The position numbers were made by a program, and so were the translations under genes. The notes beneath the pieces are model-generated. The model saw nothing but the letters and a program-made list of their open reading frames with translations. It was not told the DNA's origin and made no database searches. From assembly GCA_017428215.1 (NCBI GenBank), contig JAFRRH010000068.1, forward strand, positions 1-64,000: a stretch of 64,000 bases of DNA. The letters run 5' to 3'. This document shows, one piece after another, positions 20,257-42,551 of the stretch (positions are counted from its first letter, which is position 1; each line of letters opens with the position of its first letter). Origin of the DNA: Selenomonadaceae bacterium. Its GTDB lineage: Bacteria; Bacillota; Negativicutes; Selenomonadales; Selenomonadaceae.

Positions 20257-20826
20257 TTGGAAACGCAATCGGAATTTGTCGCGGAAGAAACGGAGCAAAA
20301 TTCTGTAGCCGCGACGTTAGAAAAAATTTTAGACTTGCAACAAAAAAATTCGCGGCAATTAGTTCAAAGTCTGCGCGAGAATGTAAACTTTCAAAATCAA
20401 GTGCGGCGGGGCATGCAACAAGAACTTGACGCCTTAAAAGAACAACAGCGCGGCGAACAGTTCACGCCGATTTTAAAATCAATCGCAACGGTCTGCGTAG
20501 AGTATAGAAAAATGTTGACGGACGAAGCCATTTCAAGACGGACGCGACGCAATCTTAAGCTACTTTTCGACGAGCTGGAAGAAATTTTATCGGAGTATGA
20601 CGCAGAAATTTTCACGTCGGAAATCGGCGAGCCGCGTCGCCCGTTACTAACTAAAATCGTTAACACCGTCGCGACCACTAATAAAGATCTACACAACACC
20701 ATAGCTAGGAGCAGACGCCCCGGCGTTATTCGCAATGGGCGGACGCTTTACCGCGAATTCGTTGACGTTTATGTTTACGACAGCAACGCGGGTATCAAAA
20801 AATCGGAATCTGTTCGCAGTGAGTAA
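20257..20826 (+). CDS. GrpE-like nucleotide exchange factor, divergent
   Basis: A protein of 189 residues. The N-terminal half is a long coiled coil (about 15-70, rich in Gln/Glu/Leu), followed by a helical middle. The C-terminal region RRPGVIRNGRTLYREFVDVY resembles the beta domain that GrpE inserts into the Hsp70 nucleotide cleft. It is immediately upstream of an Hsp70-like gene (15-base gap), as expected for a dedicated exchange factor. Sequence similarity to housekeeping GrpE is low, so it is a paralogue. The TTG start follows AAAGGAGATGATAA. Confidence 0.6.
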   Translation: METQSEFVAEETEQNSVAATLEKILDLQQKNSRQLVQSLRENVNFQNQVRRGMQQELDALKEQQRGEQFTPILKSIATVCVEYRKMLTDEAISRRTRRNLKLLFDELEEILSEYDAEIFTSEIGEPRRPLLTKIVNTVATTNKDLHNTIARSRRPGVIRNGRTLYREFVDVYVYDSNAGIKKSESVRSE

Positions 20827-20841
20827 AGGAGATAAAATTTT

Positions 20842-22470
20842 ATGAGCACATACGGAATTGACTTGGGCACAACTTATTCTTGCATAGCGCGTTTGGACTC
20901 TAACGGCAACCCCGAAGTTATTCGCAACAATGAGGACGACAGCAACACCGTCGCCAGCGTAGTTTTTTTTGAAAATGAGAGCAATGTAATCGTCGGACAG
21001 GCGGCTAAGGAAAATATTGAGACTGACGGCGATCGCGTCGTTCAATTCGTCAAGCGGGAAATCGGCAAACGCGACACTCGCACTTACGAATTCGACGGCA
21101 AAACTTATACGCCCGTTGAGATTAGCGCACTGATTTTAACGCGGCTGAAAAATTTGGTTGAGGCGCAGGGCGGCACGATTGAGGACGTCGTTATAACTGT
21201 TCCCGCTTACTTTGGACTTGAGGAACGTTCCGCGACAAAACAGGCAGGCGAACTCGCTGGACTTCACGTGTTGAGCTTAATTAACGAACCGACTGCGGCG
21301 GCTTTGAGCTATTGTGCCCGTCAATTTCAAGAGGACAGGACGGTTTTAGTTTACGACTTGGGCGGCGGCACGTTCGACGTAACTGTTTTAAAAATGTCGA
21401 TGACGCAAAATAATTCGGGGCGCGACGTTCAAAAAATCACGGTGCTTGCCACTGACGGCGACGACAGACTCGGCGGTAAAGATTGGGACGATAAACTTTA
21501 CAACCACATTTTGCACGCCTGTTGCGACGATAACGGCTTGACGCCCGAAGAAATCGAAGCTGAAACGCGGCAAGATATTCGCTCCAAAGTCGAAGAGGCT
21601 AAACGTAAACTTAGCAAGAAACAATCCGCCAAAGTTCGTATTGACGTAAACGGCTCGCGCACGGAAATTGTTATCAAGCGCACGGATTTTGAGCAGATGA
21701 CTAGCGACCTCGTTGCAAAGACTATGGGCTACATTGATAAGACGTTGGATAAAGTTCCTGCTGAGGCGATTGATACTGTTCTTTTAGTCGGCGGCTCAAC
21801 TTATATGCCGATGATAATTGACGCGGTTGAGGCTAAATTTCCTGGCAAAGTTCAACAGCACGACCCCGATCAAGCAGTTGCAAAGGGCGCGGCGATTTAT
21901 GCAAGCATGTTGGTTGAGGAAGTCGGATCTTTGTCCGCGCAGGGCGAGGAAACTTTCGGCGGCGAAGTTGCTCAAGCTGAACAACTTACCTCAAAATTTA
22001 CCGTCGAGGATCAAACGCCGCGTTCGTTCGGACCTGGTGTCGTCGATATGAACGGCGCAAAGCATAAATACGTTTTGGAGAATTTTATAAAGATTGGCGA
22101 GAAAATGCCCGCCGTGTTCACGAAAACTTATTATCCGCTTGAAGATAATCAAGAACTCGTTCGCCTGCGCGCCTTTGAAAATATGTCAACCGATGACACG
22201 TTGATTCCCTGCGTCGACGAGGACGGCAATCCGCAAGCCACTGACCCCGCGCATAACGTCAAACTTTTGGGCGAACTGATAGTTAATCTGCCGCCCAATA
22301 CCAGCCGCGACACGCCGATTAAAGTTACGTTCAAAGTTGATGCGTCGGGCGTACACGTCGAGGCGGTTAACACCAAAACTAACGAGACCTTTGAAACTTT
22401 CCTGCGCACCGAAAGCGACATTGACGTTGCGGGCAGTGCCGTTCATCAACTCCGTATTTCTGCCGATTGA
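20842..22470 (+). CDS. Hsp70-family chaperone paralogue
   Basis: A protein of 542 residues. The ATPase domain is intact: GIDLGTTYSCIA (phosphate 1), ITVPAYF, NEPTAAALSY, VYDLGGGTFDV (phosphate 2) and VLLVGGSTYMP (adenosine). After about residue 365 there is a linker and a beta-rich substrate-binding domain, ending at an acidic tail without the helical lid. That is shorter than housekeeping DnaK (about 610). DnaK-type linker DLLLLDV is absent. It is part of an operon with a private GrpE-like protein, a zinc-ribbon/FN3-like protein and a GTPase. It is likely a specialised chaperone-like ATPase; clients are unknown. Confidence 0.85.
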   Translation: MSTYGIDLGTTYSCIARLDSNGNPEVIRNNEDDSNTVASVVFFENESNVIVGQAAKENIETDGDRVVQFVKREIGKRDTRTYEFDGKTYTPVEISALILTRLKNLVEAQGGTIEDVVITVPAYFGLEERSATKQAGELAGLHVLSLINEPTAAALSYCARQFQEDRTVLVYDLGGGTFDVTVLKMSMTQNNSGRDVQKITVLATDGDDRLGGKDWDDKLYNHILHACCDDNGLTPEEIEAETRQDIRSKVEEAKRKLSKKQSAKVRIDVNGSRTEIVIKRTDFEQMTSDLVAKTMGYIDKTLDKVPAEAIDTVLLVGGSTYMPMIIDAVEAKFPGKVQQHDPDQAVAKGAAIYASMLVEEVGSLSAQGEETFGGEVAQAEQLTSKFTVEDQTPRSFGPGVVDMNGAKHKYVLENFIKIGEKMPAVFTKTYYPLEDNQELVRLRAFENMSTDDTLIPCVDEDGNPQATDPAHNVKLLGELIVNLPPNTSRDTPIKVTFKVDASGVHVEAVNTKTNETFETFLRTESDIDVAGSAVHQLRISAD

Positions 22471-22484
22471 AAGGAGTTTTTATC

Positions 22485-22709
22485 ATGAGTACTTACAAAG
22501 TTAATCCGATTGACATTCCGGACGAGAAGACGACCTTTTCGCCGCGTGAATGGAAATATTTTTTGAAAGAATTAAAAATGCGCGGGTTTGAAAAAGTTGA
22601 CTTGTGCATTAACAACGGGAAATATCTTGCAAAGCTTGACCGAGCTGAAGAACAACTCGCGGCTGGCGAAGGCAAATTGTTCACGCTTGAAGAGTTGAGG
22701 AATTTCTAA
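22485..22709 (+). CDS. Small antitoxin-like protein
   Basis: A protein of 74 residues with AAAGGAG ahead of ATG 22485. The C-terminal half (KYLAKLDRAEEQLAAGEGK then LFTLEELRNF) looks like the toxin-wrapping tail of RelB/YefM-type antitoxins. It overlaps by one base (TAATG) with a short gene resembling the N-terminal half of a YoeB/Txe toxin, the usual antitoxin-toxin order. The N-terminal part is not a recognisable DNA-binding fold. It is embedded in the Hsp70-like operon. Confidence 0.5.
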   Translation: MSTYKVNPIDIPDEKTTFSPREWKYFLKELKMRGFEKVDLCINNGKYLAKLDRAEEQLAAGEGKLFTLEELRNF

Positions 22710-22846
22710 TGCCAAATGTTTTATTTTTGAATGAAGCCCTTGCCGAGTTTAGTTATTGGGCGTATAACGACAGAAAAGTTTTTGACAAAATTAACAAGCA
22801 TATCATCGAAGTTCTTTCTTGCAAAAGTCATTACGGAGATAAATAA
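22709..22846 (+). pseudogene. Truncated YoeB/Txe-like mRNA interferase
   Basis: A 45-codon frame starting at TAATG, overlapping the antitoxin-like gene. The segment FSYWAYNDRKVFDKINKHII matches the YoeB/Txe N-terminal pattern (YW..NDKK..KKIN.LI). It stops at HYGDK, where YoeB has G-x-GKPE and then the catalytic Glu, Arg, His and Tyr-His-Tyr C-terminus. All catalytic residues are therefore absent and it should be inactive. It may be a remnant, or a leftover that still binds antitoxin. The family call was made by eye. Confidence 0.5.
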
Positions 22847-22866
22847 AATTTTTGGGAGGATTGAAT

Positions 22867-25800
22867 TTGGCGAAACGAAATATTTTTGAAATGCTCGGTT
22901 TGGAATTTGACCCTCCCGACAACGTGAAAAAAATTCGCGCTGCCTATGAGGCTTGGAAAAAACGATTAACGACTGAGCAAAATACAATGGTTGACCCGAC
23001 GCGGCTGGCGGAGATTCGTGCGGAATTGCAAATGGACGATTACATTGCGCTGACGATTGATAATCCGCGCTTTCGTCAACAGGCGGCGGAGTCTCTTAAA
23101 CAACAGCGCATTGAGGAATTGCGGCTTTACATTGACATTCAGCGCGGCGACACATCGGGCACGTTGCAAGTAAATCAAGCGCAAATTCGGCAGATACGGG
23201 ACAAGTTGCGGCTAAGTCCGGCGACGATTGAGGCGACGTATAAAGAGCAGGGATTTGAGATAAAGCCCGCTAAGTCCGCGCAGAAAATTTTGGCGACGCT
23301 GAACAGTTTTTTCCTTAATGATTCGGTAATGGGGGAGCTAAGAAAAAATTTTGCGGCGTTCCAACTCGTCCCCGATGAAAAAAATTTCCCGTGGTCGGCT
23401 AATGTTCATGACCTTTACGAGCTGGCGTTTTATATCGAAAATCAAATTGAGCCGTCGCCGGATTTTTATCGGCGTCACCCAACCGACGACTTGAGGGAAA
23501 TTTTTCGTGAAGCCGCTAAAAAAGTTTCCGCGCCAATTCCGCAGTGGCAAGCGATTAAAGCTCTCCTCAATCTGGCGCAAACTCAAGTTTTCAACACCGA
23601 CGACAGCCGCTTTAAATACGATCACTCGTTGAAGATTGAGACGTTGACAGATTTTTTTGCCAAAATAAAAGCCGCGCCCGACCTGTTCAAGCACGACAAT
23701 TATTTTGCGGATAATTGCATTAATCGGATACAGCGCACCTTCCCGAACTTTTTAACTTACGAGCAAAGTGCCGCGCTCTATAACAAGGCGGCGGGCTTGC
23801 TGAAAAATCCCTACGAATCGACGGGCGACGCGGGCGAAAATTCTTTTTGTGTGACGTGTGCTAACTGCGGAGCCTTTGAAAATTTCCGAACTCGTGAGGA
23901 AGGCGAGCGGGCGCGTTGCAAAATCTGCGGCGAAAATTTCTTTATCGAGTGTCCGAAATGCGGCAAGAAAATTCCCGCGACTGCCGACCGTTGTACCGCG
24001 TGCGACTTTTCTATTGTCGAGTTTAAAAAGTTTTCAAATTACATTGCTGAAGCGAATTCAATGCTTGACTTAATCGAGCAAGCCCGCAACGCTGATGAGG
24101 ACGTTCACATTGTCATGGCGGAGATTATAAAAATTCTCGCTAAAGCTAAGCTACTCAAGCCCGAATCCAACGACTTGAAAAAATTGGAATGGCGCATTAA
24201 TAAAGTTGCCGGCGAACTCAAGCGGCGTGAATTATTTGCTTGGGCTGATAAAAAGTTGCCGAGCCTGTCGATTGCGCCCGCCAAAGCCGTAAGCGATTGC
24301 GTGGAGATTTTGCGCAAGATTAAGGACTATAAGCCTGCACTTGACAGATTGAAATTAATTCCGCCAAAAACTCCGAGCGCGATTGTCGCCACGCTTAAGG
24401 AAAATTATTCGCCGGTCAACAACTCAAGTATTAGTAAAATTTCCGTTAAGGCTAAGTCTACTAGCGTTGGCTCCGCCGAGTCGAATTTAATTTGCAACAT
24501 TTCTTGGCAAGCTCCCGCCGATTTGGGCTTGACTTACACGCTGATTAAAAAAATTGACGGCGTGCCGAAAACTTATCGCGACGGCGAAATTTTGATTGAG
24601 AATACCGACCGCCTCGAATTTACAGATTACGACGTTAAACCTGGCGTGCTTTACGGCTACGCGATTTTCTCGACACGACTGGGAACAATTTCTGCACCGA
24701 CAACTACAACCGCCGCCCATTATAGCGACCTTGACGAGAAAAAATTAATTGCTAAGACGGAGGACGGCGCATGTAAATTTATTTGGCGGCTCCCGTCGGA
24801 AAATTGTTTAGGCATTCGGATTTTGCGCAGTGACAGCGCGGGTAAAAGCGTTGTGGTTGCTGACTGTGTGCAATCGCCCTTCGTTGACAACAGCGTTAAA
24901 AATCGTAAATCTTATCAATATCGCTTGCAATGCGTCTACTACGCCGCCGAAGATAATATTTCTAACAACGAAAAATATTTTGCCCGCCAAAGCACCGATG
25001 AAATTTTAAGCGGCGTTTGGAAGATTGAACGAACTTATAAATACAGTCACGGCTTGACCGTTAGCTTGACGCCCGAAAAGCCGCCTAAGCCTGTGGAAAA
25101 TTTAATTTGTACTGTCAGGAACGGGCGAGCCGCTTTTCATTGGAAATCGACGGGAGATTTTGCCATTTGGTTTAAGCAAGTCGTCAAAGAGTCCGCGCAG
25201 ATTGATAACAAAGTTTTTGGCTTAGATAAAATCGACGAAATTTTAGGCAGTGGCGTCGTCTACAAAAAGGCGGAGAGTTTTGACGAGACTTGCGATTTTG
25301 CTTTGAGCGGCGATAATGTTAAAGTTGCCGTCATTAGCGCGACGCGGGAATTTGGACTTATAAACGAAATTATAACTTGTGCAAACGTCGAACCTTGCGA
25401 GATTGACGCCGATAAAACTCAAATTGACGCGGGCGGCTTGAAACTTGTCTTAAAGAGCGTGCCCGAAAATCTTTATATGATTCACTACAAAATTAACACG
25501 AGCGACGCCGACGAACTTTACGCGACGATTGAGACGGCTAAGGCGCGGCAGATGAATAGAATTTACGCGGCGAAATATGCGCAGGATACATTTATTTTGC
25601 AGACGCACTTGCCGCCGAAAGAAATTTTTATTACAGTTATTGGCGAGTACAAATTTAGCGACGGAACGTCGGCTTATTGTGCGCCGAGCACGTTGACTTT
25701 AAACAATCGCCCTAAAGAAATTATTTCGTATCGGCTGGAGTGGGGGACGAGCGGACTTTTCAAAAAGGAAATTCATGCTAAGGATTGTAAGCTGATAATC

Positions 25801-26079
25801 GAGAGCAACGCCAAATCTACGCCGAAAATGTCGTTGGTGTGTCGAAGTGATGGACGCATGAACATTGAGGCGGGCGATTCAGCGACGCGCATATTGGGCA
25901 CAGTTCGCGCATATCCCGAAGGCTACAGCGGCGGGCGGCTTGAAACTAATCTGCCTAACGAAATTTGGAAAGAAGTTTCTTCGGGTACCGTTGTTAAGCT
26001 CCTCACTTCCAAAGAGGATGAAAAGCGTTTCGAGCTTAAAGCGTCGCGCCCTGATAGTCTTATTGTTCCGAAGAAGTAA
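22867..26079 (+). CDS. Large J-like, zinc-ribbon and FN3-like protein
   Basis: A protein of 1070 residues. Start TTG 22867 is chosen for GGGAGGA seven bases upstream; in-frame TTGs at 22852 and 22861 are too close. The N-terminus (NIFEMLGLEFDPPDNVKKIR) resembles a J-domain lead-in but has no HPD, so Hsp70 stimulation is uncertain. Residues of about 328-395 hold zinc-ribbons: CANCG, CKICG, CPKCGKK and CTACDF. Further on there are repeated beta modules of fibronectin III type (NISWQAPADLGLTYTLIKK with GVLYGYAIFSTRLG; then PKPVENLICTVRNGRAAFHW). No signal peptide or membrane segment is seen, so it is cytoplasmic. It is probably a scaffold linking the chaperone pair to the GTPase downstream. Function unknown. 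Confidence 0.55.
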   Translation: MAKRNIFEMLGLEFDPPDNVKKIRAAYEAWKKRLTTEQNTMVDPTRLAEIRAELQMDDYIALTIDNPRFRQQAAESLKQQRIEELRLYIDIQRGDTSGTLQVNQAQIRQIRDKLRLSPATIEATYKEQGFEIKPAKSAQKILATLNSFFLNDSVMGELRKNFAAFQLVPDEKNFPWSANVHDLYELAFYIENQIEPSPDFYRRHPTDDLREIFREAAKKVSAPIPQWQAIKALLNLAQTQVFNTDDSRFKYDHSLKIETLTDFFAKIKAAPDLFKHDNYFADNCINRIQRTFPNFLTYEQSAALYNKAAGLLKNPYESTGDAGENSFCVTCANCGAFENFRTREEGERARCKICGENFFIECPKCGKKIPATADRCTACDFSIVEFKKFSNYIAEANSMLDLIEQARNADEDVHIVMAEIIKILAKAKLLKPESNDLKKLEWRINKVAGELKRRELFAWADKKLPSLSIAPAKAVSDCVEILRKIKDYKPALDRLKLIPPKTPSAIVATLKENYSPVNNSSISKISVKAKSTSVGSAESNLICNISWQAPADLGLTYTLIKKIDGVPKTYRDGEILIENTDRLEFTDYDVKPGVLYGYAIFSTRLGTISAPTTTTAAHYSDLDEKKLIAKTEDGACKFIWRLPSENCLGIRILRSDSAGKSVVVADCVQSPFVDNSVKNRKSYQYRLQCVYYAAEDNISNNEKYFARQSTDEILSGVWKIERTYKYSHGLTVSLTPEKPPKPVENLICTVRNGRAAFHWKSTGDFAIWFKQVVKESAQIDNKVFGLDKIDEILGSGVVYKKAESFDETCDFALSGDNVKVAVISATREFGLINEIITCANVEPCEIDADKTQIDAGGLKLVLKSVPENLYMIHYKINTSDADELYATIETAKARQMNRIYAAKYAQDTFILQTHLPPKEIFITVIGEYKFSDGTSAYCAPSTLTLNNRPKEIISYRLEWGTSGLFKKEIHAKDCKLIIESNAKSTPKMSLVCRSDGRMNIEAGDSATRILGTVRAYPEGYSGGRLETNLPNEIWKEVSSGTVVKLLTSKEDEKRFELKASRPDSLIVPKK

Positions 26080-26097
26080 AACTGCGGAGGATTTTAT

Positions 26098-27252
26098 ATG
26101 TCTATGTTCAGCAAGTCGGCGGCAATTTGTCCGCACTGTCTAAGGGAATTAAAATTGAGCAGCATGAAATTTTATTGCGTCCCCGACGAAGACAATCGCC
26201 ACGAAGTTAAGCTATCGTTCGCCGATAAATTCAGAGGGCGGCTCCCCGTCTGCAAAAGAAAATTCTGCAGGAATCACGGCTTGACGATTCGAGAGGCGAC
26301 TTGCAAGCATTGTGGAGAACCGCTCCCGCCGCAACTTTTATTCCACGATAAATATCTAAGCTTCTGCGCGGTCGGCGTATCTGGCGCGGGCAAGTCAAGC
26401 TATATGACGACGCTATTGCACGAACTGAAATATTCGGGGTTGCCGTGGATTTTGCAAGCAATGGACGTGGACACGACGCGGCGGGCGCAACTTAACGAGC
26501 AATATGTTTACGAAGAGCGGCATTGTTTAAGAGGAACAGAGTCGGGCGTTTCACCTAAGCCGCAACTTTGGACGATTATGGATAATTCAGTTAAGGGCGA
26601 AAAAATTCCGACTTACGCGCTAACGATTTACGACGGCGCGGGCGAAGATTGCGAACGCATTGATTATACGCCGCTTGACGCTAAAATAAGCCATTACTTG
26701 TCGGGCGCACGAATGCTTTTGATAATGTTTGACCCACTGTTATTGTCAAGCGTGCGCGTGGAACTTTCGAGAGATACTTTGAATGCCTCAATGGCTACCG
26801 ACCGTCAAACGAGTGCGCCGGGCAATATGGTTAATATGGTGAATTCGTTGGCAAATTATATTCGCCGCAACTGCAATATTCCGCCCGGCAAAAAAATTGA
26901 CCGTCGCGCCGCCGTCGTCTTAACCAAACTTGATGCCTTAACGGAAATGCTTAACGGCTTTGCTTCCGGCTCAACGATTCTTAGAGAAAGTCCTCACGTT
27001 CAAAATCGCGGCTTCGTCGAGTCTGATAGCGTAATGGTTGATTTAGAAATACGCGACTGGCTCACGCGGCAGGGTGAAACGGCTTTTCTCGGTGCGATTG
27101 ACGCTAACTTTAAAGACGTTCGAGTTTTCGGCGTATCTAGTTTTGGGCGTCCGCCTGATTCGCGTAAACGGCTTGCCAAAATTCGTCCACACAGAGTTTT
27201 AGATCCGTTAATGTGGATGCTTGCCAGCGAGGGCATTATCCCGACGATTTAA
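26098..27252 (+). CDS. Zinc-ribbon P-loop GTPase-like protein
   Basis: A protein of 384 residues. N-terminal cysteine pairs CPHC, CKRKFC and CKHCG form a zinc-binding module (about 11-80). A P-loop GVSGAGKSSYMTTLL (about 98) follows, a Walker B/G3-like TIYDGAGED (about 180) and a G4-like VLTKLDAL (about 282), the order of a TRAFAC-type GTPase. It resembles the GTPase domains found in multi-gene bacterial conflict systems (double-GTPase type). It lies 18 bases after the FN3-like gene and belongs to the Hsp70-like operon. The nucleotide specificity and family need a profile search. Confidence 0.65.
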   Translation: MSMFSKSAAICPHCLRELKLSSMKFYCVPDEDNRHEVKLSFADKFRGRLPVCKRKFCRNHGLTIREATCKHCGEPLPPQLLFHDKYLSFCAVGVSGAGKSSYMTTLLHELKYSGLPWILQAMDVDTTRRAQLNEQYVYEERHCLRGTESGVSPKPQLWTIMDNSVKGEKIPTYALTIYDGAGEDCERIDYTPLDAKISHYLSGARMLLIMFDPLLLSSVRVELSRDTLNASMATDRQTSAPGNMVNMVNSLANYIRRNCNIPPGKKIDRRAAVVLTKLDALTEMLNGFASGSTILRESPHVQNRGFVESDSVMVDLEIRDWLTRQGETAFLGAIDANFKDVRVFGVSSFGRPPDSRKRLAKIRPHRVLDPLMWMLASEGIIPTI

Positions 27253-27264
27253 GGAGTGATTCCT

Positions 27265-27852
27265 TTGAAAAAATTTTTAGCTGTATTTTTTACGCTGATT
27301 TTATTGGCGACGACTGCTCAAGCCGCTGAACCCGTACGCATTGCCCGCTTGCCGATAATTTTTCAACGCACAATCCCCGATGATGATACTTGCGCTGAAC
27401 TCGAAGTTCTTCTTGCCCGCGCAATTCACATTCCGCTAAATGGAACTTTACAGCTCGTCGAATATTTGCCGCCAAAAGATTCTGCACAAGTTTTAGGCGA
27501 TATGTGGCAAGATATGCGCGCCGAAAATAAAAAGGCGAAGCTCCAAGACGCAATGCGCCCGCTCGCCCAAAAACTTGATGCGGATATTATCGTGTGCCCC
27601 GTTCTAAATCAGTACAGTCAACACGTTTCGATTTCTTCTGGCTGGCACGGCGAAGATTATATGATAAGCAACGTTCGCTTTGAATTGATTATCTACGACC
27701 GCCGCACCGACGAATTGATTGACAAAAAAGCCGCGCAGTTTTACAACGACTCTTACAGCCTGCGCGGCACGGCATCTTTCCTATCGAAAATTTGTTTAGA
27801 TAAAGTTATTGAGGATACTAAATTACGTCAACGCATAGTCGCCATAAGATAA
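27265..27852 (+). CDS. Exported protein, function unknown
   Basis: A protein of 195 residues starting at TTG 27265, eight bases after AAGGAG. The signal peptide KKFLAVFFTLILLATTAQA is cleaved near AQA-A. The mature part (ADIIVCPVLNQYSQHV, FELIIYDRRTDELIDKKA) has the alternating pattern of an alpha/beta fold like those of CsgG/TolB-N-type envelope proteins. It is the last gene of the Hsp70-like operon and the only exported product, 12 bases after the GTPase gene. Confidence 0.5.
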   Translation: MKKFLAVFFTLILLATTAQAAEPVRIARLPIIFQRTIPDDDTCAELEVLLARAIHIPLNGTLQLVEYLPPKDSAQVLGDMWQDMRAENKKAKLQDAMRPLAQKLDADIIVCPVLNQYSQHVSISSGWHGEDYMISNVRFELIIYDRRTDELIDKKAAQFYNDSYSLRGTASFLSKICLDKVIEDTKLRQRIVAIR

Positions 27853-36654: not shown

Positions 36655-37761
36655 GTGGCAAGCGGGAAAATAATTTTCATGCCATTGGGCGGAGCGCAGG
36701 AAGTCGGCGCAAGTTGTTACTTCCTAAAGCTCGGCGAAAATAATCTTTTGCTTGATTGCGGTTGTGGCTTGACACGCGGAATAAAATACACGCCGAAATT
36801 TTCCGCGCTGTTGCGGACGCCTTACCTGCAAGATTTTCATCAAATTTCGCACATATTTTTATCGCATGCACATCTTGACCACTCCGCCGCCTTGCCAGAT
36901 TTTTTAGGGCTTAACGAACGCGCCGCAATTTACATGACAGATTTAACGCGAGAAATTTTATCCGCGCAGTTAGAGGAGCGTTTTAGTTCAATAGAAAAAA
37001 ATATTTCGTCTGTTGCCTTCCTGCAAAAAATTCCTCTGCCGCGTTTGTCGGTAAGTTTTCATCAAGCGGGACATATTCCAGGCGCAATGATGACGTTGAT
37101 AAATTTTCGCGGGAAAAATATTCTGTACACGGGCGATTATTCGACGTTCCCGACGCAACTTGTAGGCTCGGCACTTTTGCCCGACGTGAAGATTGATATT
37201 TTAATTTTGTGCGGACTGCACGCCCGCCACCCGAATTATCAACGCTACGGCGATAGTGATTCTGCTTTGAAAAAAATTCTGCGCAAAATTTATCACGCGC
37301 TCCGTTGGCGCAAGTCTGTTTACTGTCAAGTTACGCAAATTAGCAAGGGCGTCGAACTCATCACGCTGATTAATAAATTTTTGCCGCAAGCTGAAATTTT
37401 TATCGACGATAGCGTTATGAGAATCGTCCACCGCTTTGAAAACTTGCATATCCCGATAATGCGCGAACAAAATCATTCGCTGAATACTTTACCGCGTGCG
37501 CCTTGCGTAATCTTGTCGACATTGCCGCCGCCTGTGCATTCGGGCTTGGAAATTTTAAACGGCGATTTTTCACTACACGACGACTTTAACGCAACAGTTG
37601 AATTTGTTCGCCGTATTAATCCAAAAATCTGCGTCGTAGTACACAGCCCGCCCGATAAAATTTTCCGCACAAGCACGACGCTTGAACAAGTTTTAATCAA
37701 CGACCCCGATTCAAGGACGAGTTTTATTTTCCCAAGAACGGGCGAACCTTTTGAACTATGA
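36655..37761 (+). CDS. Metallo-beta-lactamase-fold hydrolase (CPSF/RNase J-like)
   Basis: A protein of 368 residues. GTG 36655 is chosen for GGAGGTG six bases upstream. The N-terminus IFMPLGGAQEVGASCYFLKL and the metal motif LSHAHLDHS (about 73-81), then HIPGA and YTGDYS, match the MBL subfamily with beta-CASP nucleases. The later region HSPPDKI could supply the last histidine. A complete beta-CASP domain is not obvious. It is 17 bases upstream of the second GrpE-like gene, so it may work with that Hsp70 pair. It could be an RNA-processing enzyme or another hydrolase. Confidence 0.7.
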   Translation: MASGKIIFMPLGGAQEVGASCYFLKLGENNLLLDCGCGLTRGIKYTPKFSALLRTPYLQDFHQISHIFLSHAHLDHSAALPDFLGLNERAAIYMTDLTREILSAQLEERFSSIEKNISSVAFLQKIPLPRLSVSFHQAGHIPGAMMTLINFRGKNILYTGDYSTFPTQLVGSALLPDVKIDILILCGLHARHPNYQRYGDSDSALKKILRKIYHALRWRKSVYCQVTQISKGVELITLINKFLPQAEIFIDDSVMRIVHRFENLHIPIMREQNHSLNTLPRAPCVILSTLPPPVHSGLEILNGDFSLHDDFNATVEFVRRINPKICVVVHSPPDKIFRTSTTLEQVLINDPDSRTSFIFPRTGEPFEL

Positions 37762-37778
37762 CAAGGGGGAATTCTCTT

Positions 37779-38849
37779 ATGATAAACATCAACGAACCGA
37801 TGATGAAAAGGCTTATCGAGAATCTGCACAAGTCAGTAGAACGCAAAAGCAAAAATCTTTCTGCCTCCGCCGGTGAAGACTACGTTCTGGAAAATCGCGT
37901 AATTAAAATTTTCTGCGAACATAAAGGCTTTGGTCCGCGTCAATGCGCCGCCGAAATGAATGATCTTTACGGCACCGATATGGACAATGAGGACGTTATC
38001 CGCATTCTTAAATCGCACCGCTTGAGTTTTCAGCCTAAACGCGCCGAGTTGCTTAATTGGGCGCAAGAGACGATTGAAACTTATGCAAAGGCATTGGAAA
38101 CCCATAACCCAAAAGATTTTGAGGAGTTCATTAATCTGCGCAACAAAATTATTCAAACTCGCGACGGTGAACCTTACAAAATTCAAGAGCGCATTGCCTG
38201 CCTTATGTTTTACGTTAAACTTCCCGAACTCGACAGTGGCAACGACATAAATATCCTTGAAAAATTCGGCAACGTTTACATGAAACATTTTCTTTTCGAC
38301 GCCAGCGATTTTCTTAGAAATATTTGCATTCGTCCAAAAGGCAATGCCAAAGGCGATAAAAAAGATTCACAGCAAGATAAGATTGACCTTTTGGAAAATA
38401 TGCTGAACCGTTCCGATATGTTGCTTAAAGATTTGCAAGACGAATTCGACGCCCGCATTAAACAAAGTCATCAAGATGATTTGGTTGAATTTTTCTCGCG
38501 GCTTAACTCGGAAAAGTACGGTTGCATTCTCGACGAGGTTTTAAATGCAAGAACTGGAGTTCGTCAGCTCCGTAAAAAAAATATTGAGCTTCCGCCCGAA
38601 ATTGGCGGCTTGTTCATTTTGATTGAACGCCTCGCGCAGTTTATCCGCGATAGCGAAATTAATCCGATTCTTAAACCCGGCGCGGTTAAGGATATGCGCC
38701 TTGACGAGGTTGAAAGTTGCGATTATGAAGGCTCGCCCTTTCTCAACACCACTGAAGTTAAGCGCGTCAAAGTCCTTTCGCCTGGCTGGGTTTATCAGAA
38801 TAAAGATGTTCAAATTGCTAGACCGCGACTTAAAGAGGTCGAGGAGTAA
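37779..38849 (+). CDS. GrpE-like protein of second Hsp70 locus
   Basis: A protein of 356 residues, start ATG 37779 after AAGGGGGA. An N-terminal helical half has no recognised domain. The middle (about 200-270) is coiled, and the C-terminal end (YEGSPFLNTTEVKRVKVLSP then GWVYQNKDVQIARPRLKEVE) resembles the GrpE beta domain. It is 12 bases ahead of an Hsp70-like gene, the same order as at 20257-22470, although the two GrpE-like proteins differ greatly. It is probably the exchange factor for that Hsp70. Confidence 0.55.
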   Translation: MININEPMMKRLIENLHKSVERKSKNLSASAGEDYVLENRVIKIFCEHKGFGPRQCAAEMNDLYGTDMDNEDVIRILKSHRLSFQPKRAELLNWAQETIETYAKALETHNPKDFEEFINLRNKIIQTRDGEPYKIQERIACLMFYVKLPELDSGNDINILEKFGNVYMKHFLFDASDFLRNICIRPKGNAKGDKKDSQQDKIDLLENMLNRSDMLLKDLQDEFDARIKQSHQDDLVEFFSRLNSEKYGCILDEVLNARTGVRQLRKKNIELPPEIGGLFILIERLAQFIRDSEINPILKPGAVKDMRLDEVESCDYEGSPFLNTTEVKRVKVLSPGWVYQNKDVQIARPRLKEVEE

Positions 38850-38861
38850 GGAGGAATTTTT

Positions 38862-41783
38862 ATGTTAATTAATGGAGAAGAGCACAACGATTTGTGCGTA
38901 GGAATTGATTTGGGTACAACAAATTCCGTTTTGGCGACGGTGAATATCCGCCCGAACGGAAATATCGTTAGCAAAGTTGTTGACTTGGACAGAGCAGTTG
39001 ACATGTACAACGCGGGAGCAGGAGCAAAGTTTACGCTCAAAAAAAGTCCAATCTTGCCGAGCTGTGTTTACTACAACGATGAAAAAAATTATCAGCCGAT
39101 TGTCGGCGACTTCGCGAAAGGAAGGTATCCACTTCGACCGTATCTAGTTGCTAAGTCAATCAAAAGCCAAATGGGCAATGAATTTGCAGAAGGGTTATCC
39201 TCAAATATTCACGACAAAACGCCCGCGCAGGTTTCCTCCAGAATTTTGGAGCACATGCTTAGAAATGCCGCTAAAATTTATCACGTGGAAAGGATAGACG
39301 ACGCGATTATAACAGTGCCCGCGAATTTCGATTTTATAATGCGGCAAGCGACATTAAAGGCGGCAGAACTTGCAGGAATAAAAATTCGGAAGGCGGACGG
39401 CTCACCGAGACAAATTTTATTATCGGAGCCACGAGCGGTTATCTACGACTTTATTAATCAAGTTCGCAACGGAGAAATTGCCGCCCAAATTTTAGACTTA
39501 AGCTCGAAAAAAAATGTAATGGTTTTCGACTTAGGCGGCGGCACGCTTGATATTACTTTGCACGAAATTTCACGACGCGACGACGCCCCCGAAATTTTAA
39601 AAGTTCAAGACATAGCGACCAATCGTTACACACTTTTGGGCGGCGACGATTTCGATTTGTGTTTAGCAAAAGTTATGTTCCAACATTATCTGAATCAATA
39701 CGCCGCGCACGCAAATATTGTTCAAAAAATCCGCAACGAGGAACGAGGCGTTATGAGCCAGCTCCTAAACTATGCGGAAAATTTAAAATTGGAAGTCAGT
39801 GCGCAGAAAAGCGACGCATTTGGCGGCGATAATTCTGGCTGGTGGGACGAGGAAGAAGATTTCCCCGTCGGCGGCAATATCGGCACAACTGGTTATGCTT
39901 ACAGCGACAATTTCAGCGCGAATCAACTTGAGGATATTTGGCGTGAATTCATGGGCGAAGAGCTTAAATTTGACGATTATAAAAATCTCAACGTTATCAA
40001 TGAAAAATTTGGCAAGCAGAAAAATATTATCTTGCCGATTCTCGACGTGCTCAATAAGGCGTCAGCTAAACTCGCTACTGATAACGTTAAAGTTGACGCG
40101 GTTATAATGAACGGCGGAATGTCGCGCTTTTATATGGTTATCAATCGCTTGAAAAAATTTTTCGGCTTTGAACCGATTGTTGCGCTCGACCCAGATCAAG
40201 CCGTTGCTCGCGGTGCCGCCGTTTATCATTACTTCCTGCATAAATACGATAAAGAACTTGCGGAGGATTTGCGTAACGAAGTGCCCGAAAAAACTCCCGT
40301 CAGACTTCCGCCGCCTCCGTTAATTTCTCAACAGAGACAAAATACACGTCCGAATTTCCTTACACGGTCGCCGCGCAGAAATTTTTCAAGCAATCGGAAT
40401 ATCACAGCGGCAGATCGTTCAATCGGCGTCGTCTTCGGCAGTAATATCCTCAACGAAAGTTTTTATCTGGTTACATTCGGCGGCAATTACGAAGAAATTA
40501 TTCCTGCTGGTAAAGAATTGCCTTACACTTCGGAGAGATTTACGGGTTTTAGACTGCCGCCCGGCAAAAATGTTATCAGCGTGCCCATTGCCCGCGCAGA
40601 AGCTGACGGCACTTATAAAATCATTGCAAAGGGCAATATCCAATTCCCTGAACGCTATTCACGCATGAAGGAAGATATTTTCGTTACGTTCAGCATTTTT
40701 ATGGACGAGGATAAAATTATTCGCATGGACGCCGCTACTTGTCGCGACGAGCGCGGGCTTGAATTAATGGATCACGGCACCACAGAAATTTCTATTGCTA
40801 CGGGCGTTGAGAAAGGTCCCAAAACTAAACTCATTGCAAAATTCGGCGGCAAAGTTAATCCGCGTTCACAGCTCAATACAATTCGTTCGTTATGCCGCAA
40901 TGTTGATGACGCTTTCAGACGCAGGAGCAAAGACGATAATATAAAATTTTCAGCGACGCTTAAACTTAACGTGAACACGATCATTTCCGCCAGCAATCAC
41001 AAAGAATTTGCCGAACCGCTCTTGCAAATGCTTGACGACGCTAAAAATTCCCGCGAAGAATCTTTTAAATTACGTTGTATTATCATTGCAAGGAAAATCG
41101 GCGCGAATTGGACGTCGCAACAAAAAAGACGTCTTGCACGCCTCTGTTTATATCAACTCGACGAGGAACTTTATAATCCTGGTGTAAGTCTCGGTAGAGG
41201 CTTAAAGATGAATACTAAAATTCAAGCGGTTTACGCGCTGTCAATGTGCGGAAGCGACGAAGATATTGCAATGCTCGTCAATCTGCACAACAACGAAAAA
41301 TTCCGCATGGCGACTCTTTACACACACGCCATAACTAAAACCGAAGTCGATTGGATTTACTCCGAATTTAAAAAGGATTGCGCAAAAGTTTTGGCGGGCA
41401 TGCCGACTTCTTCCATACAAATTTCTGCTCATGCGCTCGGCGTTGCGTTTAAAATTGACGGACGCCCGACGAATTCCAAAATCTGCCGCGAGCAAGTTGT
41501 TTCAGACTTGTGCAAAGTTATTCGTTCACGGAATTTGAATAACGTTGAGATTAGCGTTTGTCTTTTGGCTATCGGCATGATTTGCGACCGTCGCACCGGC
41601 AATAATATGGCGCAAACTTCCTTTGACGATGCCGAAAAACTTTTTGTTGACTTGAATAAAATTTACGACGAAAGTTTTGTAGAGCTATTCTCTAAAGCGC
41701 AGGACGTAGCGCAGAAAATGATTCAAGGCGGCTACCTCACTCCTGAAGAGGAAGAATCTTTACTAATGAAATGGGCAATGTAA
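38862..41783 (+). CDS. Long Hsp70-family protein with HEAT-like C-terminus
   Basis: A protein of 973 residues. Actin-like ATPase motifs: VGIDLGTTNSVLAT (about 13-26), IITVPANF, LLSEPRAVIYD, VFDLGGGTLDITLH and VIMNGGMSRF, with an acidic insert (WWDEEEDF, about 326) inside the ATPase region. From about residue 505 a beta domain resembles the Hsp70 substrate-binding part. From about 690 to the end it is helical with repeated hydrophobic patterns, like the C-terminal extension of DUF3731-type Hsp70 proteins. It is a specialised chaperone-like ATPase; housekeeping DnaK must be elsewhere. Confidence 0.8.
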   Translation: MLINGEEHNDLCVGIDLGTTNSVLATVNIRPNGNIVSKVVDLDRAVDMYNAGAGAKFTLKKSPILPSCVYYNDEKNYQPIVGDFAKGRYPLRPYLVAKSIKSQMGNEFAEGLSSNIHDKTPAQVSSRILEHMLRNAAKIYHVERIDDAIITVPANFDFIMRQATLKAAELAGIKIRKADGSPRQILLSEPRAVIYDFINQVRNGEIAAQILDLSSKKNVMVFDLGGGTLDITLHEISRRDDAPEILKVQDIATNRYTLLGGDDFDLCLAKVMFQHYLNQYAAHANIVQKIRNEERGVMSQLLNYAENLKLEVSAQKSDAFGGDNSGWWDEEEDFPVGGNIGTTGYAYSDNFSANQLEDIWREFMGEELKFDDYKNLNVINEKFGKQKNIILPILDVLNKASAKLATDNVKVDAVIMNGGMSRFYMVINRLKKFFGFEPIVALDPDQAVARGAAVYHYFLHKYDKELAEDLRNEVPEKTPVRLPPPPLISQQRQNTRPNFLTRSPRRNFSSNRNITAADRSIGVVFGSNILNESFYLVTFGGNYEEIIPAGKELPYTSERFTGFRLPPGKNVISVPIARAEADGTYKIIAKGNIQFPERYSRMKEDIFVTFSIFMDEDKIIRMDAATCRDERGLELMDHGTTEISIATGVEKGPKTKLIAKFGGKVNPRSQLNTIRSLCRNVDDAFRRRSKDDNIKFSATLKLNVNTIISASNHKEFAEPLLQMLDDAKNSREESFKLRCIIIARKIGANWTSQQKRRLARLCLYQLDEELYNPGVSLGRGLKMNTKIQAVYALSMCGSDEDIAMLVNLHNNEKFRMATLYTHAITKTEVDWIYSEFKKDCAKVLAGMPTSSIQISAHALGVAFKIDGRPTNSKICREQVVSDLCKVIRSRNLNNVEISVCLLAIGMICDRRTGNNMAQTSFDDAEKLFVDLNKIYDESFVELFSKAQDVAQKMIQGGYLTPEEEESLLMKWAM

Positions 41784-41786
41784 AAA

Positions 41787-42551
41787 ATGGAAACGTTAGA
41801 CTTTACAGTTATGGCGATAATGGCGGGCATGGGATTTATCGCGGCGTTTATTGATTCGGTTGTCGGCGGCGGCGGATTAATTTCAGTCCCAACTTTAATG
41901 TGGGCGGGCTTGCCAATGCTAAACGTTCTCGGCACGAACAAAATCGCCTCTTGCATGGGAGCCTGCGCGGGATTTTTAACTTATCTGCGTTCAGGCAAGA
42001 TTGACAAAAAAATTATGCGCGTGATGTTCCCGCTGGCGTTTATCGGCTCGATTATCGGCGTGTTAGTTGTGCGAGAAATTCCGCCTGACTTCCTGCGCCC
42101 GCTCGTCGTCGTCATGCTGATTGTAATTGCGATTTACAGCGTAGCGAAAAAAAATTGGGGCGCGGATAAAAAATCTGTCCACGTCTCCCATAAAAATTAT
42201 TTGCTTGGTGTCGTGTTAATTTTCGCGCTCGGCTTCTACGACGGATTCTTTGGTCCGGGTACAGGCTCGTTTATGTTGTTTTTATATCTGATGATGGGCT
42301 ATGGATTTTTAGGAGCCGCCGCCAATGCCAGAGCCGCCAATTTTGCCAGCAACATTGCCGCCGCGATTGTCTTTACGACTTTAGGGCTTGTGAATTTTTC
42401 CTACGCAATCCCAATGGGGCTTGGAATGATTTTGGGCGCGGCTTGCGGTGCGAAAATGGCGATTTCAAAGGGCGCGGCTTATGTCCGTCCGCTGTTTATC
42501 GGCATGACTGTAATTTTAATCGGTAAGCAAATTATTGAGCTGTTCAAATAA
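41787..42551 (+). CDS. TSUP-family membrane permease (TauE/SafE-like)
   Basis: A protein of 254 residues with about eight membrane segments. Family signatures: DSVVGGGGLISVPTLMWAG and NKIASCMGACAGFLTYLRSG in the first half, FYDGFFGPGTGSFM in the second. TSUP proteins export or import sulfur-containing or organic anions. It starts three bases after the Hsp70-like stop with no ribosome site, so translation is probably coupled. Confidence 0.88.
   Translation: METLDFTVMAIMAGMGFIAAFIDSVVGGGGLISVPTLMWAGLPMLNVLGTNKIASCMGACAGFLTYLRSGKIDKKIMRVMFPLAFIGSIIGVLVVREIPPDFLRPLVVVMLIVIAIYSVAKKNWGADKKSVHVSHKNYLLGVVLIFALGFYDGFFGPGTGSFMLFLYLMMGYGFLGAAANARAANFASNIAAAIVFTTLGLVNFSYAIPMGLGMILGAACGAKMAISKGAAYVRPLFIGMTVILIGKQIIELFK

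Follow-up and report, generated by a model that had tools for sequence, protein, structure and literature searches.

A conserved gene trio for a metallo-beta-lactamase-fold enzyme, a GrpE-like protein and an Hsp70 in Selenomonadaceae and other bacteria: a possible Hsp70-controlled enzyme system

What do an Hsp70 and a GrpE-like protein do when their genes lie directly behind a gene for a metallo-beta-lactamase (MBL)-fold protein? This question is raised by a stretch of 64,000 nucleotides (positions 1 to 64,000 of contig JAFRRH010000068.1, assembly GCA_017428215.1), termed the window in the following. It stems from a Selenomonadaceae-type bin of 2.82 Mb (73 contigs, 88.6% complete), the relatives of which include bins named Quinella. 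At 36.6-41.8 kb of the window, genes for MBL-fold, GrpE-like and Hsp70 proteins are arranged consecutively and head to tail. The original prediction, made from the sequence of the window alone, had described this site as a second, unrelated-looking GrpE-like/Hsp70 pair behind an MBL-fold protein. When the open reading frames were checked, the very different protein lengths and the order of GrpE-like before Hsp70 gene proved to be as described for both pairs (Table 1), and the MBL gene does adjoin the second pair. The conserved unit, however, is not a pair. The MBL enzyme is a constant member as well, which makes the unit a trio.

To collect relatives of the locus, an 18-row alignment of the GrpE-like protein (A1) served as the query in a pattern scan that covered one genome per species; every open frame at the loci found was subsequently searched with profiles for all three proteins. 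The scan yielded 73 related loci in anaerobes from several phyla, i.e., 74 including the window. Carriers belong to the Selenomonadaceae, Lachnospiraceae, other Clostridia, Phascolarctobacterium, Epulopiscium, Synergistaceae, Spirochaetaceae and Riflebacteria and include the named strains Lachnoanaerobaculum orale DSM 24553, Lachnoanaerobaculum saburreum DSM 3986 and Anaerovibrio lipolyticus An883. Since the order MBL, GrpE-like, Hsp70 on one strand is kept in every one of the 59 loci with three complete genes, it is not due to chance. The remaining 15 of the 74 loci are incomplete: 13 are cut at contig ends and two (L122, L165) have a broken frame. Median gaps within the trio are 18 and 12 bp across loci, and 17 and 12 bp in the window. 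The three proteins have also diverged in step. Their pairwise distances correlate with r values of 0.97 (GrpE-like/Hsp70), 0.93 (GrpE-like/MBL) and 0.96 (Hsp70/MBL), and when only the 34 loci that lack close relatives are considered, r is still 0.91-0.95.

Co-occurrence of the genes was analyzed in 60 relatives of the host genome, 37 of the genus and 23 of the class. The GrpE-like gene is present in 20 of them, the long Hsp70 in the same 20 plus genome G001, and an MBL match of at least 220 bits in 19 of the 20 GrpE-like carriers plus G001, the next MBL match reaching only 82.7 bits. Contig breaks lie inside the GrpE-like gene in genome G005 and inside the Hsp70 gene in G001. Matches to the GrpE-like alignment occur in 47 of 380 genomes of the class, 40 of these in the same genus, and of 398 genomes sampled evenly across the phylum, that of the host alone gave a match. 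Neither the phage records (50,697) nor the plasmid records (72,556) contained a match, and a pattern scan of viral contigs returned no confirmed relative. There is no constant fourth gene, the largest cluster of flanking genes being represented in three of the 35 more divergent loci. A tree of concatenated proteins from 41 loci contains a branch (Shimodaira-Hasegawa-like approximate likelihood ratio test, SH-aLRT, 96) that separates the 23 Clostridia rows from all others, and one Synergistaceae locus sits among the Negativicutes rows. On the basis of its distribution, the tree, the phage and plasmid negatives and the variable flanks, the trio gives the impression of a chromosomal unit that is old and patchily distributed, perhaps with some transfer.

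Epulopiscium and Quinella are both found among the carriers (L158, L162, L168 and Quinella-like loci). Epulopiscium is known for its large cells. The same has been stated for Quinella in a passage of PMC9585023; this parallel may be a coincidence.

Is the second protein of the trio a GrpE? An AlphaFold model built from 18 sequences without templates (predicted local distance difference test, pLDDT, 78.6; predicted template modelling score, pTM, 0.61) shows a helical domain at the N-terminus, which extends to about residue 183. It is followed by a long helix (197-242), a further two helices and, at the C-terminus, a beta domain with strands at residues 294-296, 303-307, 327-339 and 344-353. The five best VIA structural alignments are all with GrpE proteins (8gb3, Z 6.7; 9bls, 6.5; 9blt, 6.4; 9a81, 6.0; 1dkg, 5.5) and span about residues 187-356. 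A GrpE-like beta domain at the C-terminus, as envisaged in the original prediction, is therefore in agreement with the model, and the protein is GrpE-like by its predicted fold. Sequence tests were weak. For these and for the residue counts below, rows were chosen by hand to span the 74 loci (13 for Hsp70, 22 for MBL, 34 for the GrpE-like protein and Hsp70). The Pfam GrpE family did not match the window protein and matched four of 34 members, with a best E value of 0.093 and none over the cut-off. A profile search of the PDB with the 18-row alignment returned no GrpE at E values up to 10, and Foldseek returned nothing at 0.001 or better with the model. In profile-profile comparisons with 31 canonical Selenomonadaceae GrpEs and column-shuffled decoys, none of 100 decoys scored as high as the stretch 187-356, and 16 of 100 did for residues 235-356. 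The assignment as GrpE by sequence, be it through Pfam, PDB profile or profile-profile comparison, was rejected in view of these results, and homology to GrpE is not claimed from sequence. A helix-turn-helix DNA-binding function of the N-terminal domain was likewise considered, on account of transposase matches of the window protein (IS3, E 0.003; IS481, E 0.077) and of ISCth4 in Foldseek (E 1.1), and rejected, since the IS3 match was obtained for only one of 34 members. The N-terminal domain also stands alone, adjoining the trio in some Quinella-like genomes; copies of 277-291 amino acids (aa) precede the GrpE-like gene of the trio at L103:1179-2054, L110:684-1523 and L124:7072-7905 (+).

The third protein is an Hsp70 with unusual features. 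PF00012 matches all 34 trio members, and Foldseek matches a near full-length DnaK (E 1.8e-18). D8, T11, K70, E171, D194, G196-198, T199 and D201 (E. coli numbering) are kept in 13 of 13 trio sequences; with the exception of the glycines, these are phosphate-binding and catalytic residues of E. coli Hsp70. In contrast, the column of DnaK R167, the arginine that contacts the J-domain, holds Lys or Asn in all 13 trio Hsp70s and Arg in four of four DnaKs. The hydrophobic VLLLD linker is likewise absent from the aligned columns 389-393 in all 13 sequences, where a variable stretch is found instead. The acidic insert and the long helical C-terminus noted in the original prediction are both present, the former (WWDEEEDF) in the ATPase-domain half according to the alignment and the latter according to the model, which has a pLDDT of 65.4 overall and is weak over residues 1-128 and 442-527. 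In the model, strands resembling a substrate-binding beta domain are followed by helices only, and some VIA alignments to Hsp70s extend to residue 648, at high root-mean-square deviation. The host genome has four Hsp70 genes and a single J-domain match, which lies in the dnaK operon.

For the MBL protein, the 22-row profile found CPSF73 (E 1.3e-45) and INTS11 as the nearest solved structures, followed by archaeal CPSF and Cas14. With these beta-CASP proteins it shares MBL motifs 1-4 (HxHxDH, His146, Asp167) as well as motif B (His314) and motif C (His336), aligned to CPSF73; all are invariant in 22 of 22 rows. Considering the nearest solved relatives and the invariant metal motifs, the protein can be read as a metal-dependent enzyme whose MBL site is intact and which likely, though not certainly, acts on RNA.

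How could these proteins work together? We tentatively favour, at a little less than an even chance, a dedicated three-protein machine in which an Hsp70 nucleotide switch and its own exchange factor control a CPSF73-like hydrolase. The Hsp70 would alternate between ATP and ADP states, its beta domain and long helical arm binding a target or partner. Its private nucleotide exchange factor would be the GrpE-like protein, the N-terminal helical domain of which probably recognises the target or positions the complex. The MBL enzyme would be the effector, a CPSF73-like zinc hydrolase acting most likely on RNA, and its access to the substrate would be gated by the Hsp70 cycle. As the canonical J-protein route is apparently lost, ATP hydrolysis would be triggered by binding of the target or effector. 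Hsp70s residing beside predicted RNases elsewhere (beta-CASP in L087, PIN domains in L091 and L140, see below) are in favour of this reading. A bolder form of it, which we regard as doubtful, would dispense with protein folding altogether: The nucleotide cycle of a J-independent Hsp70, run by the private GrpE-like factor, would switch a CPSF73-like nuclease between open and closed on selected RNAs, and the trio would be one of several Hsp70-RNase modules in these bacteria.

Several observations weigh against such a machine. The Z-scores for GrpE are modest, the best unrelated entry reaching 4.9, and Foldseek ranks GrpE 1dkg second but with an E value of only 0.3. By sequence, the beta domain alone (residues 285-356) is not recognised as GrpE, with 13 of 100 decoys scoring as high, and for the whole protein the score of 24.4 barely exceeded the best decoy (24.3), the aligned part being the coiled coil. 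In the Hsp70, an insertion adjoins the R167 column, and Arg183, which is invariant in the 18 rows of alignment A2 and located two to six residues from this column, could substitute for the missing arginine. Furthermore, in a Robinsoniella bin the trio is closely preceded by a gene for a J-domain protein (L149:315-1310 (+); E 3.1e-28 to the J-domain of E. coli DnaJ), and because of this gene J-independence is something that we infer rather than observe. The MBL enzyme differs from the beta-CASP proteins not only by a length of 374 aa and a shorter region between motifs A and B, but also by Cys192 at motif A in 22 of 22 rows, where CPSF73 has Glu204. In addition, the 22 members gave matches to nine Pfam families at E values up to 0.01, and Beta-Casp (PF10996) was not one of them. 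The exchange of the motif A glutamate and the lack of a match to the Beta-Casp domain make nuclease activity uncertain.

In principle, the association of the three genes can also be explained by fundamentally different functions. One possibility is that the MBL enzyme is a client with an unrelated metabolic job, and that the Hsp70 together with its exchange factor serves to mature it, load it with metal or hold it. HscA and HscB serve IscU in such a manner. The constant gene association, the correlated divergence, the strands in Hsp70 that resemble a substrate-binding domain and the invariant metal site of the MBL enzyme would all be in line with a chaperone for this one client. However, HscA works with a J-protein whereas the J-contact arginine is missing in 13 of 13 trio Hsp70s, and neither the long helical arm nor the extra domain of the GrpE-like protein would be accounted for. 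We consider this explanation rather unlikely. It is quite improbable that the two chaperone genes encode a stress-specific general pair, similar to the second DnaK with GrpE in Myxococcus xanthus, and that the MBL gene is a passenger. A dedicated GrpE-Hsp70 operon is indeed known in M. xanthus (PMC11019930, in part). On the other hand, a passenger would not be expected to be present in every complete locus and to show distances that track those of the other two proteins, and the hydrophobic linker of DnaK is absent.

A role in anti-phage defence, with the Hsp70 sensing infection and the MBL enzyme cutting RNA or DNA, also has to be weighed. Presence is patchy, as stated above for the 380 genomes of the class, Cas6 is encoded in the flanks of L135 and L160, and in L160, a Butyricicoccus bin, blocks of CRISPR-like repeats occur on both sides of the trio and a DpdF-like gene follows downstream. 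A kinase-NB-ARC-TPR protein is encoded upstream of the L141 trio, with a relative by clustering in L159 (Table 1), and Hsp70s with HEAT-like repeats have been proposed as parts of CoCoNuT systems (PMC11090510, in the passages concerned). These neighbours are hints from single loci, however, and no defence gene is a constant companion. Family scans of the flanks covered 119 proteins chosen from 174 complete flank proteins of 150-1500 aa, with 25 of 73 families (PADLOC) and 25 of 185 families (Pfam) listed; when ten flank proteins were scanned singly with PADLOC, three matched at 1e-10. For the trio itself, PADLOC-DB 2.0.0 contained no clear model match: weak PDC matches only were obtained for two of the three proteins (MBL, E 0.016; Hsp70, E 0.0028) and none for the GrpE-like protein. 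The mostly class-coherent tree and the absence of relatives from the phage and plasmid records and of confirmed ones from viral contigs also argue against defence, which we deem unlikely. Our preference remains with the three-protein machine.

The trio can be set apart from systems described so far. Compared with DnaK and GrpE, it has the same Hsp70 catalytic residues, as far as compared, and a partner with GrpE-like helical and beta parts. Differences are the lack of the J-contact arginine at the aligned place and of the hydrophobic linker, the helical arm in place of the lid, the extra N-terminal domain of the partner and the MBL enzyme in the operon. MxDnaK2 with MXAN_6672 resembles the trio in that a dedicated GrpE-Hsp70 operon exists apart from the housekeeping pair, but according to the available text of PMC11019930 these are usual DnaK and GrpE homologues, and no MBL partner appears in that text. 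CnuD of Type III CoCoNuTs combines Hsp70-like nucleotide-binding and substrate-binding domains with HEAT-like helices in systems with predicted RNases; its motifs are described as degenerate with very low expected hydrolysis (both from passages of PMC11090510), while the residues of the trio Hsp70 are intact. In addition, CoCoNuTs have McrB and McrC partners, and the only PF10117 match of the host genome is located on another contig than the trio. HSP70 and GrpE genes also occur together, with an FNIII/DnaJ protein and a DO-GTPase, in the GAP1-N2 theme of GTPase-centric conflict systems (eLife 2020, PMC7159879, in part). The trio was not seen beside a GTPase or GAP1 gene, the GAP1-N2 domain was not found in the host genome (88.6% complete), and the terms 'MBL' and 'beta-lactamase' are absent from the main text of PMC7159879. 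A description of the trio was not among the literature matches listed, which covered titles, abstracts and passages and not supplements or subscription journals.

It is the first pair of the window, with its DO-GTPase-like neighbour, that resembles the GAP1-N2 theme. Its GrpE scores over the Pfam cut-off (27.4 versus 25.8 bits). Against profiles of the Selenomonadaceae GrpEs and of the trio GrpE-like proteins, 17 and 18 of 60 decoys, respectively, scored as high. The 1075-aa protein behind the pair carries a zinc-ribbon hint (PF13240), and its J-like start and FNIII-like body were judged by eye only. From 20257 to 27852, genes for the GrpE-like protein, Hsp70, the 1075-aa protein, the DO-GTPase-like protein and a small secreted-looking protein form a run on one strand. 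Phylogeny of the ATPase domains of 32 Hsp70s placed the 13 trio members in one group (support 100/99) and three first-pair proteins in another (100/100), and a tree constrained to unite them was rejected in the approximately unbiased test (p-AU 0.0029, with long-branch warnings). Both pairs of the window are thus noncanonical, as stated in the original prediction, and their Hsp70s belong to different lineages.

Further modules exist. At L088:6399-9828 (+) and L089:6326-9743 (-), the Hsp70 gene is preceded by one for a protein of 562-567 aa with a different N-terminal part. These proteins and one of 355 aa in L090 (L090:7885-8952 (-)) match the C-terminus of the trio GrpE-like protein (hhalign, E 6e-6, probability 85, none of 100 decoys as high) and, judged by sequence, represent a further type of GrpE-like/Hsp70 module in the genus. 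L087:5246-10327 (-) encodes an Hsp70 of 569 aa, a protein of 532 aa that no Pfam family matches and an MBL/beta-CASP protein of 574 aa (PF10996, E 4.5e-6, just under the cut-off). A PIN domain (PF13638) is inserted into the Hsp70 ATPase domain at L091:3142-5148 (+) (E 3e-11), in a row of genes for four Hsp70s and an AAA ATPase, and at L140:446-2776 (+) (E 1.5e-15), directly upstream of a trio in a member of the Lachnospiraceae. With these additional modules in the genus and in L140, the idea of a family of specialised modules was borne out; overall, the observation behind the original prediction was confirmed and its interpretation partly supported. The fourth Hsp70 of the host genome (L084:6868-10668 (+)) has a frame of 803 aa and is followed by a 457-aa protein with a J-like start by eye.

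In the window, the trio is flanked directly by genes for EamA and TauE. The latter gene adjoins the trio in part of the genus only (cluster of eight) and is outside the conserved unit. The GTG start of the MBL gene at 36655 fits the N-termini of its relatives and has GGAGG eight bases upstream, and in the longer frame of the GrpE-like gene the ATG overlaps the MBL stop codon as ATGA. A CIRCE heat-shock box was not found upstream of the trio. This is uninformative because the three dnaK loci lack it too. Promoter-like sites are at chance level (11 versus 11.5 expected); terminator-like sites number 16 versus 10.7 by chance, yet lie mostly within genes.

Table 1 Features of the trio, of the first pair and of selected flanks. 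Positions refer to the window unless a locus is given.
Feature	Position	Strand	Basis
MBL-fold hydrolase, CPSF73/INTS11-like	36655..37761 (alternative start 36637)	+	Pfam Lactamase_B, E 1.6e-9
GrpE-like protein, 356 aa (363 aa from 37758)	37779..38849	+	Fold of AlphaFold model
GrpE-like protein, N-terminal helical domain, aa 1-185	37779..38333	+	Model
GrpE-like protein, GrpE-aligning part, aa 187-356 (long helix, more helices, C-terminal beta domain)	38337..38846	+	Model and structural alignment
Hsp70-like protein, 973 aa	38862..41783	+	PF00012, E 7.6e-36; Foldseek DnaK
Hsp70 ATPase domain, about aa 1-460	38862..40241	+	Catalytic residues kept in 13/13
Hsp70 acidic insert, about aa 326-334 (WWDEEEDF)	39837..39863	+	18-row alignment A2, Trp327 invariant
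Hsp70 variable low-confidence linker, where the hydrophobic Hsp70 linker is expected	40245..40457	+	Alignment and model
Hsp70 region resembling substrate-binding beta domain, aa 534-645	40461..40796	+	Strands in model; some VIA alignments
Hsp70 C-terminal domain, entirely helical, aa 667-968, resembling helical repeats, replacing the lid	40860..41765	+	Model
TauE/SafE-type transporter gene, 3 bp downstream of Hsp70 gene	41787..42551	+	PF01925
First-pair GrpE-like protein, 189 aa	20257..20826	+	Pfam GrpE, E 3.2e-6
First-pair Hsp70, 542 aa	20842..22470	+	Open reading frame; separate Hsp70 lineage on tree
1075-aa protein and DO-GTPase-like protein behind first pair	22852..27252	+	PF13240, E 0.018; PF19975, E 1.8e-4; both under cut-off
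CRISPR-like repeat blocks	L160: 5682-6119, 11955-12060, 14957-15060		Cas6 upstream, DpdF-like downstream
Large protein upstream of trio	L141:2401-6672, L159:1946-6328	+	L141, PADLOC PD-T4-6, E 2.5e-20

Hsp70 cycles are normally read as folding driven by J-proteins. If the three-protein machine outlined above is true, the trio would represent an Hsp70 used as a switch for an enzyme, and this across phyla. Its genes are open to testing in named strains, and it offers a natural example of GrpE-type partners that carry extra domains.

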